Below the pieces are notes generated by a model, which saw only the letters and a program-made list of their open reading frames with translations, searched no databases and had not been told where the DNA came from. 64,000 nucleotides of DNA from assembly GCF_026248685.1 (NCBI RefSeq), contig NZ_CP111036.1, positions 806,001-870,000 of the forward strand. The letters are read 5' to 3'. Positions 23,024 to 32,546 of the stretch are shown in pieces. The translations under genes and the position numbers were made by a program. Origin of the DNA: Haladaptatus caseinilyticus (GTDB lineage: Archaea > Halobacteriota > Halobacteria > Halobacteriales > Haladaptataceae). Every line of letters starts with the position of its first letter. Position 1 is the first letter of the stretch.

Positions 23024-24958
23024 TTAGTCGGCGTATATTGCCTCGATGTCGTCGGCAAATCGATCGAGGATGTTCCGACGCTTCTTCTTCATCGTTGGCG
23101 TGAGGAGGTCGTTTTCCTCGGTGAACTCGACCGGAACGACCCTGAACTGTTTGATTCGTTCGTACGACTCGAATCGTTGGTTCGCCGTCTCGACTTCGGC
23201 TTCGATCCACTCGCGCACCGTCTCGTTCCGACAGAGTTCATGCGTGTCGTCGGGAAGCGAGACATCCTCACGCTTCGCTCGTGAACGAACTTCGGGCTCG
23301 TTCGGCACGATGAGCGCGCTGACGAACTTCCGCCCGTCGCCCATCACCATACACTGCTCGACGATGTCGCTCGCGGCGAACGCATCTTCGATGGGACCGG
23401 GAGCGACGTTTTTGCCCGTCGAGAGCACGAGCAGCTCCTTCGCTCGCTCACGGAAGGCGATATACCCGTCGGGACGGATTTCCACGATATCGCCGGTTCG
23501 GAACCACCCATCCTCGGTAAAGGCTTCCTCGGTTGCCTCGGGCATGTTCCAGTAGCCGTCAGTGACGTTCGGACCTTTGACGAGAAGTTCACCGACGTCA
23601 CCTGCGACATCGTCGAATTCCATTCCGACCATCGATGTATCGACCGTTACATCCTGATTCAACAGCGGCGGACCGATCGTGCCGATTTTCGGTTCTTCGG
23701 GGGGATTGACGCTGATGACGGGTGACGTTTCGGTCAAGCCGTATCCTTCCAAAATTGGCAGACCCATGCCGTGATAGAGCGCACAGAGTTCGGCGGACAA
23801 GCTTCCACCGCCGCTGATGAGGAACTCCACGTTGCCGCCGAGGCCTTGCTTTACCTTGTCGAAGACGAGTTTGTCCGCGAGGATCTTTTTCGCCCGGAGA
23901 CCGACCCCCGGCGAGTCGGTCTCGTGATATTCGACACCGACGCTGGTTGCCCACTCGAATATCTTGCGTTTCGTGTCGTTCTCCTCGGCTTGCGATCGAA
24001 TCGCGTCGTAGATTCGTTCGTACACGCGTGGGACGCTGGTTCCGGTCGTCGGACGAACCGACTGGAAGTCCTCACGGAGCGTGTCGGGGCTCTCGGCATA
24101 CGCCACGGTCGCCCCGGCGGCAAACATCAGGAAGTGGCCAGCCATTCGTTCGAACACGTGTGCGAGCGGGAGGAACGAGACGGTGCTCGCGTTTTCGTCG
24201 ATGGCTGGGACGTCCTTGTCCGGGCGAGGACCGAACCGGCGGTACGACTGATTGACGTTCGAGCGGAAGTTCCAGTGCGTGAGACGGACGCCCTTCGGTC
24301 GGCCCGTCGTCCCGCTGGTGTAGATGAGCGTAGCGAGGTCGTCGGGGTCACGTGCATCGAGCCACGATTCGTACTCATCGGGGTCGAACATCGACGAACC
24401 GCGGTCGTAAACATCGGCGAGGGTGTGGAGATCGTCGCGCTCGTACTCCCGCGAGAGGGAATCCATCACGACGATGAATTCGAGGTCGAGGTCGTCTTCC
24501 GCCTCGAAGACGCGCTCCAATAGGTCCTCGTTTTCGACGACGACGCCGGTCGCTTCCGGGTCGCCGAGGAGGTACTGGACCTGCGAGACTGAGGAACTTC
24601 GATAGACGGTCGTTACAACCGCGCCAGCGGCGAGCAGGGCGAAATCGGATTGTGCCCACTCCATCCGCGTGTCGGCGAAAATGCCGATCCGGTCGTCCGC
24701 GGTAACACCGAGGTCGCGGAATCCGGCCGCGAGGTTGTGGACGATGTCTCGCATTGTAGCATACGAAAGCGTGCGAAATTCGCCGTCCGGGGCCGCCGGA
24801 AGCACGGTTTCGGTGAGCGAGCGACGGTACACCCCGCCCTTGTACTGCTGTGCTGGGCGGTTTGCGTATCGCTCGGCGCTGTCCTCGAACATCCTGGACA
24901 GCGTCGTCCGCTCGATGACCGGGTCTGTGTACTCCTGTTCTGCGTCACGCCACTCCAT
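23024..24958 (-). CDS. Long-chain acyl-CoA ligase (AMP-forming)
   Basis: A 644-residue adenylate-forming enzyme. The phosphate-binding loop is YTSGTTGRPKGV, the A5 motif is GYGLTETSPV and the A7/A8 motifs are WFRTGDIVEIRPDGYIAFRERAKE, with KNVAPGPIEDAF and a C-terminal catalytic lysine region (TPTMKKKR). It activates fatty acids to acyl-CoA. The start MEWRDAEQEYTDPV at 24958 was preferred over ATG 24985, since a TATATA at 25002-25007 would put the RNA start near 24979, after the upstream ATG. The exact substrate is not predictable. Confidence 0.93.
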   Translation of the reverse strand: MEWRDAEQEYTDPVIERTTLSRMFEDSAERYANRPAQQYKGGVYRRSLTETVLPAAPDGEFRTLSYATMRDIVHNLAAGFRDLGVTADDRIGIFADTRMEWAQSDFALLAAGAVVTTVYRSSSVSQVQYLLGDPEATGVVVENEDLLERVFEAEDDLDLEFIVVMDSLSREYERDDLHTLADVYDRGSSMFDPDEYESWLDARDPDDLATLIYTSGTTGRPKGVRLTHWNFRSNVNQSYRRFGPRPDKDVPAIDENASTVSFLPLAHVFERMAGHFLMFAAGATVAYAESPDTLREDFQSVRPTTGTSVPRVYERIYDAIRSQAEENDTKRKIFEWATSVGVEYHETDSPGVGLRAKKILADKLVFDKVKQGLGGNVEFLISGGGSLSAELCALYHGMGLPILEGYGLTETSPVISVNPPEEPKIGTIGPPLLNQDVTVDTSMVGMEFDDVAGDVGELLVKGPNVTDGYWNMPEATEEAFTEDGWFRTGDIVEIRPDGYIAFRERAKELLVLSTGKNVAPGPIEDAFAASDIVEQCMVMGDGRKFVSALIVPNEPEVRSRAKREDVSLPDDTHELCRNETVREWIEAEVETANQRFESYERIKQFRVVPVEFTEENDLLTPTMKKKRRNILDRFADDIEAIYAD

Positions 24959-25041
24959 ACCATTCCCTTCAGACCCTGGCGACATTAAGGTAGTGTAAAA
25001 CTATATAAGAGTTTATTGGTGTTTTCGCGGTTTCGGGTTCG

Positions 25042-28066: not shown

Positions 28067-28939
28067 CTACTCGTATGTCAAGGTCATCCCGCCGTCGAAC
28101 AGTAAATCGCCGCCGTTCAGGTGTTTCGCGTGTTTCGAGAAGCCGAAGACGAACAGGTTGGCGACGTCGACGGGTTCCATCATCTCCGTACTTCGGGCTT
28201 GGCCGAGCATGACGTCCTCGACGACTTCATCGACGGAGATTCCGCGTTGGTCTGCCGTATCCGGAATCTGGTCCGTGACGAGCGGCGTCTTCACGTAGCC
28301 CGTGCTAACCGAGAACGAACGAATCGAGCCGCCGCCCTCTGCCGCAATGGATTGAGTGAGTCCGCGAAGGCCGAACTTCGAGACGTTGTAGGCAACCTTG
28401 TCCGCGGTGACGTAGTGGCCGTGAACCGAACACATGTTGCCGATACAGCCCACGCCATCGTCGGTCGCACGAATGTGGGGAAGACAGCGTTTGGTGAGGT
28501 ACAGCGGCGCTCTGAGCATGATGTCGTGAATGGTGTCGTATGTCTCCATCGGGAACTCCTCGATGGAGTCGATGTGTTGCATCCCGGCGATGTTGGCGAG
28601 GTAACGAATCGTGCCGTAGTCGGCGGCCGTATCGACGATTCGGTCGAGGTCGTCATCTTCAGTCAGGTCGGCGGTGACACCCTCGAACTCGCCGGCGAGT
28701 TCGAGTTCAGCGATTCGTTCCGCGGTTCCGTCGAGGCCGGACTCGTCGATGTCGGTTCCGACGACAGTCAATCCGTTCGCGGCCGTCGCAATGGCAGTCG
28801 AACGCCCGATCCCGGAGCCGGCGCCGGTCACGATACAAACGCTGTCCGTCGTAAAGTGGTCGTCATCGACAGTGAGAAGATCGTCGGTCGTCGTCTCCGG
28901 CGGGGAGATTCGGTCGTCCGCCTCCTGTGGGCCAGTCAT
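28067..28939 (-). CDS. Short-chain dehydrogenase/reductase (SDR)
   Basis: A 290-residue SDR. The cofactor motif TGAGSGIG is at about 39-46, NIAG follows, and the catalytic Ser and YNVSK (Y and K) are in place. The ending NGGDLLFDGGMTLTYE is typical of classical SDRs. It probably oxidises a hydroxy acid or alcohol with NAD(P); a 3-hydroxybutyrate-type substrate is a guess. The start is ATG 28939; the open frame to 29020 spans the promoter. The promoter element at 28967-28993 is shared with the symporter operon, which suggests common control. Confidence 0.88.
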   Translation of the reverse strand: MTGPQEADDRISPPETTTDDLLTVDDDHFTTDSVCIVTGAGSGIGRSTAIATAANGLTVVGTDIDESGLDGTAERIAELELAGEFEGVTADLTEDDDLDRIVDTAADYGTIRYLANIAGMQHIDSIEEFPMETYDTIHDIMLRAPLYLTKRCLPHIRATDDGVGCIGNMCSVHGHYVTADKVAYNVSKFGLRGLTQSIAAEGGGSIRSFSVSTGYVKTPLVTDQIPDTADQRGISVDEVVEDVMLGQARSTEMMEPVDVANLFVFGFSKHAKHLNGGDLLFDGGMTLTYE

Positions 28940-28966: not shown

Positions 28967-28993
28967 GCGAAAAATAGCGGGTTGATATGTAAA
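28967..28993 (-). promoter_or_regulatory. Shared promoter element, copy 1 (SDR gene)
   Basis: Read on the plus strand, GCGAAAAATA, two variable bases and GGGTTGATATGTAAA recur at 32498-32524 with 25 of 27 bases identical. On the minus strand it reads as an upstream box TTTACATATCAACCC followed by TATTTTTCGC, the probable TATA box, which ends 27 bases before the SDR ATG. The same spacing (25 bases) is seen at the second copy. Confidence 0.75.
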
Positions 28994-29002
28994 ATCAACC
29001 CG
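28978..29002. promoter_or_regulatory. Perfect 9-base inverted repeat, candidate operator
   Basis: CGGGTTGAT (28978-28986), a 7-base spacer ATGTAAA and ATCAACCCG (28994-29002) form a perfect inverted repeat. It lies just upstream of the SDR TATA box and between the SDR and HTH_10 regulator promoters. The symporter promoter at 32498-32524 keeps only the left half (GGGTTGAT). It is a candidate binding site for the neighbouring regulator. Confidence 0.65.
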
Positions 29003-29050
29003 GATGGTACGTGTCGCCATCTATTTCCGTCATGAACGATGAGATAGGAT

Positions 29051-29776
29051 ATGATTTCGGTAACAATGGACATGGTACAGTATGACTGTCCATATATCGA
29101 CGTCACCGACGACGTCGACGTGTCCTTCCACACCATGCACTGGGATTTCAACACCGCCCAGCAGAAGTTAGAAACGAGAATTCTCGTGACCGGGGACGAC
29201 CGTGGTGCGCTAACGAACGGCCTCAACGCGCTTCAGAACCACGACAGAACGCTGGGATTCGAGCTGCTCTCCCGCCGCGAGAATACGGCAGTAATCAAAT
29301 CGTTTATCGGGCAGACGAACGCGATGCGGACCATTCGGGAACACGACGGCTACATCACCGGCCCGTTTCAAATCAGCGGGGGGAGTGAACTCTGGAGCGT
29401 CGGCTTCGACACCGCGGACAACACCGACAACGCCCTCGCCGAATTGGAGGTCGGAAACGACTTTCACGTCGAGAGCCGAAACGCCACGTCGTTCGAGGAC
29501 TATCTCGACGTTATCCAGCATCTCGGGACGGCGAAAGACGTCCTCGATGGCTGTCGAGAACTGTCCGAACGGGAACGCCAGACGCTCAAACGAGCCGTCG
29601 ATGGGGGGTACTTCCGGACGCCACGGAACGCGACGCTCGGAACGCTGGCTGAAGAGTTCGATATCTCGAAAACCGCGGCCTCGAAGAACCTTCGACGAGC
29701 CGAAGCGAAGATCCTCGAACGTATCGTATCCGCATTCCCGGACGTCGAGGACGATGCCGTGTTGGGCCGCGAATAG
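29051..29776 (+). CDS. Bat-type HTH_10 transcription regulator
   Basis: A 241-residue protein with the C-terminal HTH_10 (bacterio-opsin activator) domain at about 178-232 (ELSERERQTLKRAVDGGYF, TLGTLAEEFDISKTAASKNLRRAE). The N-terminal 170 residues are a sensor-like part without a known ligand. A TATA-like CTATTTCC at 29021-29028 lies about 27 bases before ATG 29051, so the RNA would be leaderless; ATGs at 29066 and 29072 are alternatives. It is divergent from the SDR gene and convergent with the symporter operon, and is the best candidate to control both. Confidence 0.88.
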   Translation: MISVTMDMVQYDCPYIDVTDDVDVSFHTMHWDFNTAQQKLETRILVTGDDRGALTNGLNALQNHDRTLGFELLSRRENTAVIKSFIGQTNAMRTIREHDGYITGPFQISGGSELWSVGFDTADNTDNALAELEVGNDFHVESRNATSFEDYLDVIQHLGTAKDVLDGCRELSERERQTLKRAVDGGYFRTPRNATLGTLAEEFDISKTAASKNLRRAEAKILERIVSAFPDVEDDAVLGRE

Positions 29777-29817
29777 CGACGAATAGCCGCGAACGGGCGG
29801 CCGTTCGAAAGCCGAAA

Positions 29818-30309
29818 TCAGAGGAGTCCGGATACGGTTTCGATTTCGATATCGACGTGTGAGAGTCGAGCGTCGTTTTGGAGCGTTTCGACGTCACCTA
29901 CCTGCGGGTCCGCTGATTTCGTCGCGCGAAGTTCGAACGATTCGGACGAATCACCTTCGCGCCACGTCACGGTAACCGTCGCACGTCGAAACAGGGAGCC
30001 CTCCCGAAGCCGAATCGACTGCAGCGAATCGAGCGGAACGGCGAAGTTCCGCTCGCTGAGCGTCCGGGCCCGTTCGGGAGACAGTTCCGTGATTTCTCTG
30101 CGACCGCGTTCGCCAGTGTCTGCTCGCAAGAGCAATGATTTGAACGATTCGCCGACGAAACACCAGACGAGTCGCTCGTCGGTCACGAGCAGTTCCCAGT
30201 ATTCCATCGACGTGGGGCGCTGGCGGAACCACTGCGTAAGGTGTGCGAGCAACTCTTCCGAGGAGTCGTCCCGTGGCTCGTTCATACCGTTGTTTCGTAT
30301 CATAGCCAT
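29818..30309 (-). CDS. PH-like domain protein of unknown function
   Basis: A 163-residue soluble acidic protein. The pattern YWELLVTDERLVWCFVG, then VPLDSLQSIRLREGSLFRR and TVTVTWREG, resembles bacterial PH-like (bPH) domains, which is inference from strand pattern only. The frame starts at ATG 30309, one base after the symporter stop, so it is probably the third gene of that operon; ATGs at 30303 and 30285 are other possible starts. A role with the symporter is possible but not shown. Confidence 0.65.
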   Translation of the reverse strand: MAMIRNNGMNEPRDDSSEELLAHLTQWFRQRPTSMEYWELLVTDERLVWCFVGESFKSLLLRADTGERGRREITELSPERARTLSERNFAVPLDSLQSIRLREGSLFRRATVTVTWREGDSSESFELRATKSADPQVGDVETLQNDARLSHVDIEIETVSGLL

Positions 30310-30310
30310 A

Positions 30311-31882
30311 TTATCGTTCCAAGAGGATGCCGATATCTTCCGGAACCGTCGCCCGTTCCTGCGTCACGATCGAGACGCCGACGAAGAGCGCAATCGTAAC
30401 CAAGAGCGCGACCGTTCCGACCGGAAACGAACCGGGGAACGGGTAGAGGTTCGTGACGGTCGTGCTGAGTTCCGAGAGTCCAACAGTGTCCGCGATTCGC
30501 GGAACCGCGCTGTAGAACACGTTGACCGTCAACCCACCGACGAGGGCGGCAATTGCGCCCTCCTTCGTCGCCCCTTTCCAGTTCAGTCCGAGAGCCGCGA
30601 TGGCAAAGAACGCCGCCGCAAAGAATCCCCACCCGATGGTTCCGAGGATGCCGACCAACGTCTCCGAAAAATACACGATGAGCGTCGATGCGACGGTGAG
30701 TCCCGCGAGTGCGATCTGTGTCACGCGAAGTTCCGTCGTATCGTCGTCGATGGGGCGACCGAGTGCACGCGGAATGTCACGGGAGACTGCCGCCGCGCCG
30801 ATGTTCAGGAACGAGTCGCTGGTACTCATGATGGCCGCCAACAGTGCTGCCAAGATGAGTCCGGCCACGACGCCGGGTGTGTGTTCGAGGACGAACACCG
30901 GGCCGACGATGGACGGGCTTTTCGGTGCGGCAGTCCGTCCAGCTTCGACCATCGCACGCATCGACAGACCGGTCGAGAACGCGAGAAGGCTCGAAATCGC
31001 ATACGTCACGGCGGCGATGGGCGCACCCCAACGGAGGATTTTGAGGTTGCGGCTCATGTAAAACTTGGTGATGAGGTGTGGCTGTCCGGCCGCACCGACC
31101 GAGAAGAGGATCCACCAGCCAAGCGCAGTGAAGATAGTCGCAGTGGGTGCGCCGAGTGCACCGAAGGGCGAGACGAACGCAGGGTCCGCGCTCGCGAGGT
31201 TTCGTGAAATCGACCCCATACCGCCCCCGAACGAGAGCGCGAAGGCGAAGACGAACACCGAACCGACGATCATCGTGATGGCTTGCACGAAGTCAGTCCA
31301 GACCCCCGCGATCATGCCGCCGAGCATGCTGTAGAGTAGAAGGATGGTCGCGCCGATGAGGAGGCCCCACATAACCGGCAGGCCGAATATCGCCCGCATG
31401 ACGTACTGGAGTGCGGCGAGATTGGTCGCCAGGTACGCCATCACGCCGACGATGACCGCGACCGCGGTCAGTCCACGAACCCACGCGCTTTCGTACCGGA
31501 CGTACATTCCGTCCGCGAGCGTCATCACATCGCGAATGTCAGCCAGCAGGCGCATTCGCTTCGCCAGCAAAACCCACGTGACGATGAAACCCAACGGGGC
31601 CGTGAAGAAAATCCACAGCGCCGTCGTCCCGAACTCGTAGACCAGTTCGGGTCCGCCGACGAAGCCAAACCCGGACTGGATGACCGAAAACGCAGTCAGC
31701 GCGAGCACCCACGTTCCGATACTTTTTCCGGTAATGAGGAAGTCTTCGGTACTCTCGGTCTGCAGATAGCCCCACACACCGATAGCCAACACCATCAGCA
31801 GATAGGCACCGCCGAAAAGAATGACGTACGGGCTGTCGGTGACTGGGATTTCCTGAAGGGGAACCATCGGGAGGGAGGTCAT
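30311..31882 (-). CDS. Sodium:solute symporter (SSS family)
   Basis: A 523-residue membrane protein with about 13 helices. The SSS signature is seen in TEDFLITGKSIGTWVLALTAFS and in GGPELVYEFG near the N-terminus, and LAAIMSTSDSFLNIGAAAVSRDI in the middle carries the conserved serine/threonine sodium-site region. Monocarboxylates, amino acids and sugars are known substrates of the family. The gene overlaps the upstream small membrane gene by four bases (ATGA), a typical arrangement for SSS carriers with a small partner. The promoter is at 32498-32524. Confidence 0.92.
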   Translation of the reverse strand: MTSLPMVPLQEIPVTDSPYVILFGGAYLLMVLAIGVWGYLQTESTEDFLITGKSIGTWVLALTAFSVIQSGFGFVGGPELVYEFGTTALWIFFTAPLGFIVTWVLLAKRMRLLADIRDVMTLADGMYVRYESAWVRGLTAVAVIVGVMAYLATNLAALQYVMRAIFGLPVMWGLLIGATILLLYSMLGGMIAGVWTDFVQAITMIVGSVFVFAFALSFGGGMGSISRNLASADPAFVSPFGALGAPTATIFTALGWWILFSVGAAGQPHLITKFYMSRNLKILRWGAPIAAVTYAISSLLAFSTGLSMRAMVEAGRTAAPKSPSIVGPVFVLEHTPGVVAGLILAALLAAIMSTSDSFLNIGAAAVSRDIPRALGRPIDDDTTELRVTQIALAGLTVASTLIVYFSETLVGILGTIGWGFFAAAFFAIAALGLNWKGATKEGAIAALVGGLTVNVFYSAVPRIADTVGLSELSTTVTNLYPFPGSFPVGTVALLVTIALFVGVSIVTQERATVPEDIGILLER

Positions 31883-32472
31883 CGATGCTCACCTCCTTTC
31901 GCCCCTGACGATTCACCGTTCGTACTGTGGTTTCCTTCCCCGTGGTTGCCGTCCGGCGAGGGCCGTCGTGCATCGCTCGCGCCACCATCCGGTTCGGTTC
32001 GAGCCACGGAAAGCGGGAACTGCTTGCGCCGTTGTACTTGCCGAACGTCGCCCATGATATCGTCCACGACATCGTCGCTCCCGATGCTGGGGAAAACGAG
32101 GGCGTAGTAGAACGCGCCGAGAAGCGGCAACAGCCACAGGAAGACGAAGTAGGCCAGCGTCGGGACGGGGAGACCGAGCATGTAGGTGTACTCGGTCACA
32201 CCGGGATTCCACTGAAGCCAAATAATCGTGAATCCGGCCACGAAAATCGCGGCCAGACCGACCAGCAACCACGTGTACGGGGCGAGGTCGAGTTCGTCGC
32301 CGTGTCGCTCGATGGACGAGGCACCGAAGTTTGCGACGATGAACAGTGCCGCGAGGTACGAAAATACCAGATAGTTCTCGATCGCCGCGGAAACTAACAG
32401 TGCGACCGCTAGTACGGCTATCGTGCCCATTACCCTGTTTCGTGCGCCGAGCGTTGTTCGTGAGGACGCCAT
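31879..32472 (-). CDS. Small membrane partner of SSS symporter
   Basis: A 197-residue protein with about four to five helices (14-30, 35-50, 65-85, 100-125) and a hydrophilic tail rich in G, S, D and N (140-197). Small membrane proteins encoded just before SSS carriers (DUF485, DUF3311 or DUF4212 types) are known, and this one fits that position, although I cannot assign a family. The start ATG 32472 is 25 bases after the shared promoter element. Confidence 0.75.
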   Translation of the reverse strand: MASSRTTLGARNRVMGTIAVLAVALLVSAAIENYLVFSYLAALFIVANFGASSIERHGDELDLAPYTWLLVGLAAIFVAGFTIIWLQWNPGVTEYTYMLGLPVPTLAYFVFLWLLPLLGAFYYALVFPSIGSDDVVDDIMGDVRQVQRRKQFPLSVARTEPDGGASDARRPSPDGNHGEGNHSTNGESSGAKGGEHR

Positions 32473-32497
32473 CTTGTATGGACCAGGGTACCAAATA

Positions 32498-32524
32498 GCG
32501 AAAAATAATGGGTTGATATGTAAA
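32498..32524 (-). promoter_or_regulatory. Shared promoter element, copy 2 (symporter operon)
   Basis: GCGAAAAATA, AT and GGGTTGATATGTAAA on the plus strand match 28967-28993 at 25 of 27 positions. Read toward the gene it is TTTACATATCAACCC followed by the TATA-like TATTTTTCGC, 25 bases before ATG 32472. Flanking bases differ from copy 1, so the match is confined to the promoter. Confidence 0.75.
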
Positions 32525-32546
32525 CGGACGCTGACACGGCCTCCGG

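Follow-up and report, generated by a model that had tools for sequence, protein, structure and literature searches.

Why two promoters 3.5 kb apart, one of an SDR gene and the other of the operon of a sodium:solute symporter, should be nearly identical, and whether the HTH_10 regulator encoded between them reads the sequence that they share, are the questions raised by this locus of Haladaptatus caseinilyticus, which lies in a stretch of 64,000 nucleotides analysed as a whole (the window). Direct comparison of positions 28967–28993 and 32498–32524 showed 25 identical bases out of 27 and diverging flanks, exactly as the initial annotation had reported, and its claim that the element ends 25 to 27 bases before the ATG was also borne out, with 27 bases to that of the SDR gene (28939) and 25 to that of the small symporter subunit (32472). 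Allowing up to three mismatches, the chance expectation of such a match in the window was 0.00, and exactly two places in the whole 4.82-Mb genome matched the 27-mer at this threshold, both of them in the window.

On the minus strand, which is the coding strand of both units, the two 27-mers read TTTACATATCAACCC-[GC/AT]-TATTTTTCGC, so that in the coding direction TTTACATATCAACCC precedes the TATTTTTCGC box in both promoters. A TATA-like box and a second half common to both had already been described and are indeed present, although the upstream half had been written on the non-coding strand. The 27-mer is made up of two parts, a 14-bp inverted repeat with the pattern GTTnAYATRTnAAC (the operator) and, about 8 bp downstream, a TATA-like box, which is the core promoter and not a site of the regulator. 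Operator 1 (TTTTACATATCAAC, 28981–28994, minus strand), upstream of the SDR gene, has one mismatch to the pattern and lies 56 bp from the ATG of the divergent regulator gene; it is followed after about 8 bp by the TATA-like box TATTTTTC (28969–28976, minus strand), which stands 30–37 bp before the SDR ATG. Operator 2 (GTTTACATATCAAC, 32512–32525, minus strand), upstream of the symporter operon, matches the pattern perfectly, and the TATA-like box of its promoter is again TATTTTTC (32500–32507, minus strand). A longer perfect inverted repeat, CGGGTTGAT-ATGTAAA-ATCAACCCG, with arms at 28978–28986 and 28994–29002, was also seen in the intergenic region between the SDR and regulator genes, where it overlaps operator 1; close relatives retain only part of it.

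When the promoters of orthologous SDR genes were compared, GTTnAYATRTnAAC emerged as their conserved part in many families of the class Halobacteria, with 37–47 bp from the operator end to the ATG in most of them. At the SDR promoter, GTTGATATGTAAA was invariant in three relatives of the genus, and GGGTTGATATGTRAAC was invariant in eight aligned symporter promoters with diverging flanks, corresponding to the window and seven relatives (G123, Haladaptatus, Halogranum, and YIM A00010). In many genomes, SDR and symporter promoters have a T-rich TATA-like box at +8 to +11 from the operator, as do depolymerase promoters with less uniformity, and the operator-to-TATA spacing was constant across promoters of these three gene classes. 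A shared site immediately upstream of TATA at a fixed spacing, as in promoters of the Bat/UAS kind, was hence found here.

The regulator gene (29051–29776, plus strand) lies between the two units and encodes a protein of 241 aa with HVO_2525_N and a C-terminal HTH_10. Its scores with PF04967 and PF24279 (62.7 and 46.7 bits, against gathering scores of 23.1 and 27) place it in both families, and it is the only homologue of its kind in the genome at E ≤ 1e-30. Among regulators of this kind, the recognition region SKxAxSKNLRR is nearly invariant, and in about 30 genomes from several families the regulator and the SDR are divergent neighbours. Bat proper, the bacterio-opsin activator, has N-terminal sensor domains of the PAS/GAF type. 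Pfam detected only HVO_2525_N and HTH_10 in the present protein and no such sensor domain; thus, it is not Bat proper. A structure search with its AlphaFold model (pLDDT 90) matched HTH domains of the sigma-4/LuxR-like kind and returned no convincing or informative structural relative of the sensor fold. A dimer of the regulator most likely contacts the operator through the HTH, and GTTGATATGTAAAC is the putative binding sequence. As for the inducer, 3-hydroxybutyrate or a derivative of it is our guess from the pathway described below.

The presence of the operator was then compared with that of the regulator in 292 genomes from the class Halobacteria, 150 of which carry the regulator. When the best SDR of each genome was considered and up to two mismatches were admitted, the operator was detected in 70 of the 82 regulator-bearing genomes and in none of the 36 regulator-less ones (Fisher 2.6e-20, a value that ignores phylogeny). 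Shuffled palindromes gave a mean of 4.6 out of 82 in this test, with a single pattern reaching 53 that was taken to be one resembling the operator. Before the symporter operon, where one mismatch was admitted, the corresponding figures were 21/23 and 0/11 (Fisher 2.7e-7, which likewise ignores phylogeny). Contrasts within genera, few in number, are the only comparisons that address phylogeny. In genus g33, the operator was present in all three genomes with the regulator and in none of three without it, the latter having kept the symporter, with a decayed site or none in the corresponding place, and genus g26 showed 2/2 versus 0/3. In g6, the SDRs of the regulator-less genomes G025, G028, G091, and G118 are devoid of the operator, and those of G143, G144, G164, and G193 carry it. 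Exceptions were also found, as 12 regulator-bearing genomes have no operator at the best SDR, and G143 and G144 have none at the symporter. In addition, the symporter is kept in 11 genomes without the regulator and is therefore not exclusive to the regulon. Operator presence that tracks regulator presence is what would be expected if the regulator reads the site, and in these comparisons, the SDR and symporter units share a predicted regulatory site that follows the HTH_10 regulator across genomes. The small catabolic regulon envisaged in the initial annotation, with import by the symporter, oxidation by the SDR, and the HTH_10 regulator between the two units, gains support from these counts and is extended by a third target outside the window, an exported PHB depolymerase, and by 3-hydroxybutyrate as its likely substrate.

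This third target came from a search of the whole genome. With one mismatch allowed, the 14-bp operator alone was found at 11 places and the reversed pattern at 9, which is near background, and the requirement of a T at +8 left 6 places and 2 for the reversed control. Exactly three of these six have an ATG-started gene 39–46 bp downstream, namely the depolymerase, the SDR, and the symporter operon, all of them belonging to the proposed pathway. The occurrence of the element before many unrelated genes, which the initial annotation had named as an argument against a regulon, was not observed in the genome-wide search that it had suggested. The other single-mismatch places in the genome, none of which stands before a matching gene, were taken as chance, among them one about 4 kb from the PHA synthase gene on contig C5. 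An acyl-CoA ligase gene (23024–24985) was a candidate for membership too but was not included, as no operator lies near it in the window and, among ligases near regulators in other genomes, the operator was found at only 3 of 47.

The third operator (contig C1, 352450–352463, with one mismatch allowed) lies 46 bp before the gene of a 330-aa protein, the first of a pair of PHB depolymerases (352.6–354.5 kb of the same contig), the second of which overlaps or directly follows it. Both scored well above the cutoff of 150 bits of the model for extracellular short-chain PHA depolymerases of type 1 (NF050058; 292.8 and 311.6 bits), and the 330-aa protein shows a GLSAG motif (GxSxG) and the twin-arginine start MKLDRRTFLRS, features that predict an extracellular type 1 enzyme; the nearest PDB entry is 8daj. 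Depolymerases of this kind were found in 15 of the 292 genomes, and all but one of these 15 carry the regulator (Fisher p 0.0008, again without regard to phylogeny). In 13 of the 14 with the regulator, the operator precedes the depolymerase by about 39–46 bp from the likely start, and in the one depolymerase genome without the regulator, it is absent. Just upstream of the pair lies a gene resembling family 18 glycoside hydrolases (L126, 255–1451), whose end is separated from the third operator by about 50 bp. A PHA synthase is also encoded in this genome, which makes polymer of its own a further possible source.

The SDR (28067–28939, minus strand, 290 aa) had TIGR01963 as its best curated model, with 204 bits, which is under the cutoff of 307 and does not place it in that family. 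Its nearest PDB chains are 3-hydroxybutyrate dehydrogenases, and residues Q121, S171, H173, K181, Y184, K188, and Q224 were invariant in 62 of 62 homologues. We take these seven to be the catalytic S-Y-K and the substrate-binding Q, H, K, and Q of 3-hydroxybutyrate dehydrogenase structures, and by these residues the SDR is a predicted 3-hydroxybutyrate dehydrogenase. The symporter operon begins with a small membrane protein (31879–32472, minus strand, 197 aa) that has no Pfam match and adjoins the symporter in relatives too. The symporter itself (30311–31882, minus strand, 523 aa) belongs to the SSS family (PF00474, E 8e-48), and no substrate-specific NCBIfam model passed its cutoff, the ActP, PutP, and PanF equivalogs scoring far below theirs; we propose it as a candidate importer of 3-hydroxybutyrate. 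The third gene (29818–30309, minus strand, 163 aa, no Pfam match) starts 1 bp after the end of the symporter frame, and its product is kept beside the symporter in Haladaptatus, Halogranum, Halocatena, and a distant family. The most likely substrate of the regulon is 3-hydroxybutyrate.

Near regulators of many families, the operator was detected before most SDRs (59 of 72), nearly all symporter operons (8 of 9), and both depolymerases (2 of 2), as well as before 71 of 86 LIV-type periplasmic binding proteins and 25 of 37 alpha/beta hydrolases; control palindromes in the loci around regulators gave 0.05 or less (means of 0.05 for the LIV-type proteins and 0 for the hydrolases). The counts at LIV-type proteins and symporter operons indicate a transporter slot filled by SSS or ABC systems depending on the lineage; an SSS symporter occupies it in Haladaptatus, Halogranum, Halocatena, and some further families, and ABC transporters do so elsewhere. 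Several of the hydrolases near regulators that carry the operator (L104, 10071–10904; L049, 3151–3957; L113, 2918–3805) are enol-lactonase-like, and such proteins may be hydrolases of 3-hydroxybutyrate oligomers. Some local variants were also noticed. Haladaptatus salinisoli and H. halobius (L252, L253, L268) lack the SDR beside the regulator and keep the operator of the symporter operon, and elsewhere in H. salinisoli, an SDR preceded by two operators adjoins a second regulator (55% identical). In a sister genus (Halorussus-like), SDR promoters can carry two operators (L042, L108–L110), and in L042, the SDR and a LIV-type ABC binding protein are divergent.

Taking all this together, we consider it likely that the HTH_10 regulator, through the operator, controls the PHB depolymerase pair, the SSS symporter operon, and the SDR for the use of external PHB, probably as an activator. 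A dimer of the regulator would bind the 14-bp operator just upstream of the TATA-like box and, by analogy with Bat at the bop UAS, would recruit TBP/TFB. The three targets in this genome would then act in sequence: the Tat-exported depolymerase pair would digest external poly-3-hydroxybutyrate, the SSS symporter (a LIV-type ABC transporter in many relatives) would bring in 3-hydroxybutyrate with sodium, and the SDR would oxidise it to acetoacetate.

The direction of control could also be the opposite, with the same regulon being repressed by the regulator next to TATA and released by an inducer. This is possible but unlikely: in every promoter, the operator is close to the TATA-like box, and SDR and symporter genes persist in genomes from which the regulator is missing, which implies that these genes can be expressed without it; however, the operator is positioned before TATA and clear of the presumed start site, where archaeal activators are usually found, for instance Bat at the bop UAS (PMC1447603), and the HTH resembles those of sigma region 4 and LuxR-type proteins, which are often activators. 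Another short hydroxy- or keto-acid as the substrate of the same regulon seems rather improbable to us, given the exported PHB depolymerase that carries the operator in 13 genomes and the substrate-binding residues of the SDR kept in all 62 homologues, even if the SSS family is broad, with no specific model passing its cutoff, and neither the LIV-type binding proteins nor the enol-lactonase-like hydrolases of relatives are substrate-specific by sequence.

The many HTH_10 paralogues of haloarchaea, together with the fact that we infer the binding of the regulator to the operator, leave some room for a different transcription factor as the owner of the site, merely co-occurring with the HTH_10 gene. 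We regard this as very improbable, as in many families the gene of the regulator is flanked by or adjacent to the target genes, this genome has no second gene of its kind, and where the regulator is absent, the operator is absent too, though the SDR and symporter remain. Finally, the 25/27 agreement might have no regulatory meaning and come from a recent copy of the promoter, the two being so near each other in one genome, or from a general resemblance of core promoters, the TATA-like part being a common kind of sequence. Comparative data already contradict this, and we give it practically no credence: when the same loci were compared in relatives, as the initial annotation had proposed, the operator was kept while the TATA part and the flanks drifted, and the operator recurs before SDR genes class-wide.

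Activation by the HTH_10 regulator is therefore the reading that we retain, and beyond this genome, there is a good chance that it represents a class-wide archaeal regulon for external PHB and 3-hydroxybutyrate, in which the HTH_10 subfamily with HVO_2525_N, through a palindromic operator, controls depolymerase, SSS or ABC transporter, hydrolase, and dehydrogenase genes. To our knowledge, operator and regulon have been established for few haloarchaeal regulators; here, one HTH_10 subfamily would be tied, across Halobacteria, to its specific DNA site, to a pathway, and to an inducer that can be tested. Likely genes can be named for the haloarchaeal breakdown of external PHB, which is a natural as well as a commercial bioplastic, the operator stays in place where the transporter type is exchanged (sodium symporter versus ABC), and the promoters are candidate inducible ones for haloarchaeal genetics. 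Searches of the open-access literature, only a part of what has been published, brought up no description of this regulon, a text search returned no paper on HVO_2525, and on the regulation of an external PHB depolymerase in haloarchaea, only intracellular or synthesis work was found.

Among known systems, the Bat/bop UAS regulon of Halobacterium (PMC1447603, PMC3184054) shares with the present one the HTH_10 DNA-binding domain and a short site just upstream of TATA common to a few functionally linked promoters, and Bat is thought to act at the bop UAS by recruiting TBP/TFB (PMC1447603). In contrast, the regulator described here has only HVO_2525_N and HTH_10, with no PAS or GAF sensor found, its putative operator is GTTnAYATRTnAAC, and its targets belong to the catabolism of PHB and 3-hydroxybutyrate; by analogy, the regulon would work like the Bat/UAS kind, but it is not Bat. 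Haloarchaeal PHB metabolism, with polymer or monomer involved, is also the subject of the work on Haloferax mediterranei, where PhaR and PspR (PMC10948481) and PhaJ1 and PhaZh1 (PMC4823750) concern synthesis and the mobilisation of intracellular granules, whereas here the polymer would be external, with import and oxidation, under a regulator of an unrelated family. Lastly, the bacterial-type system of extracellular PHB depolymerase and 3-hydroxybutyrate dehydrogenase resembles the present one in its exported type 1 depolymerase (NF050058) and in an SDR with dehydrogenase residues, but here these genes stand under an archaeal promoter logic, operator plus TATA, with an operator that extends class-wide.
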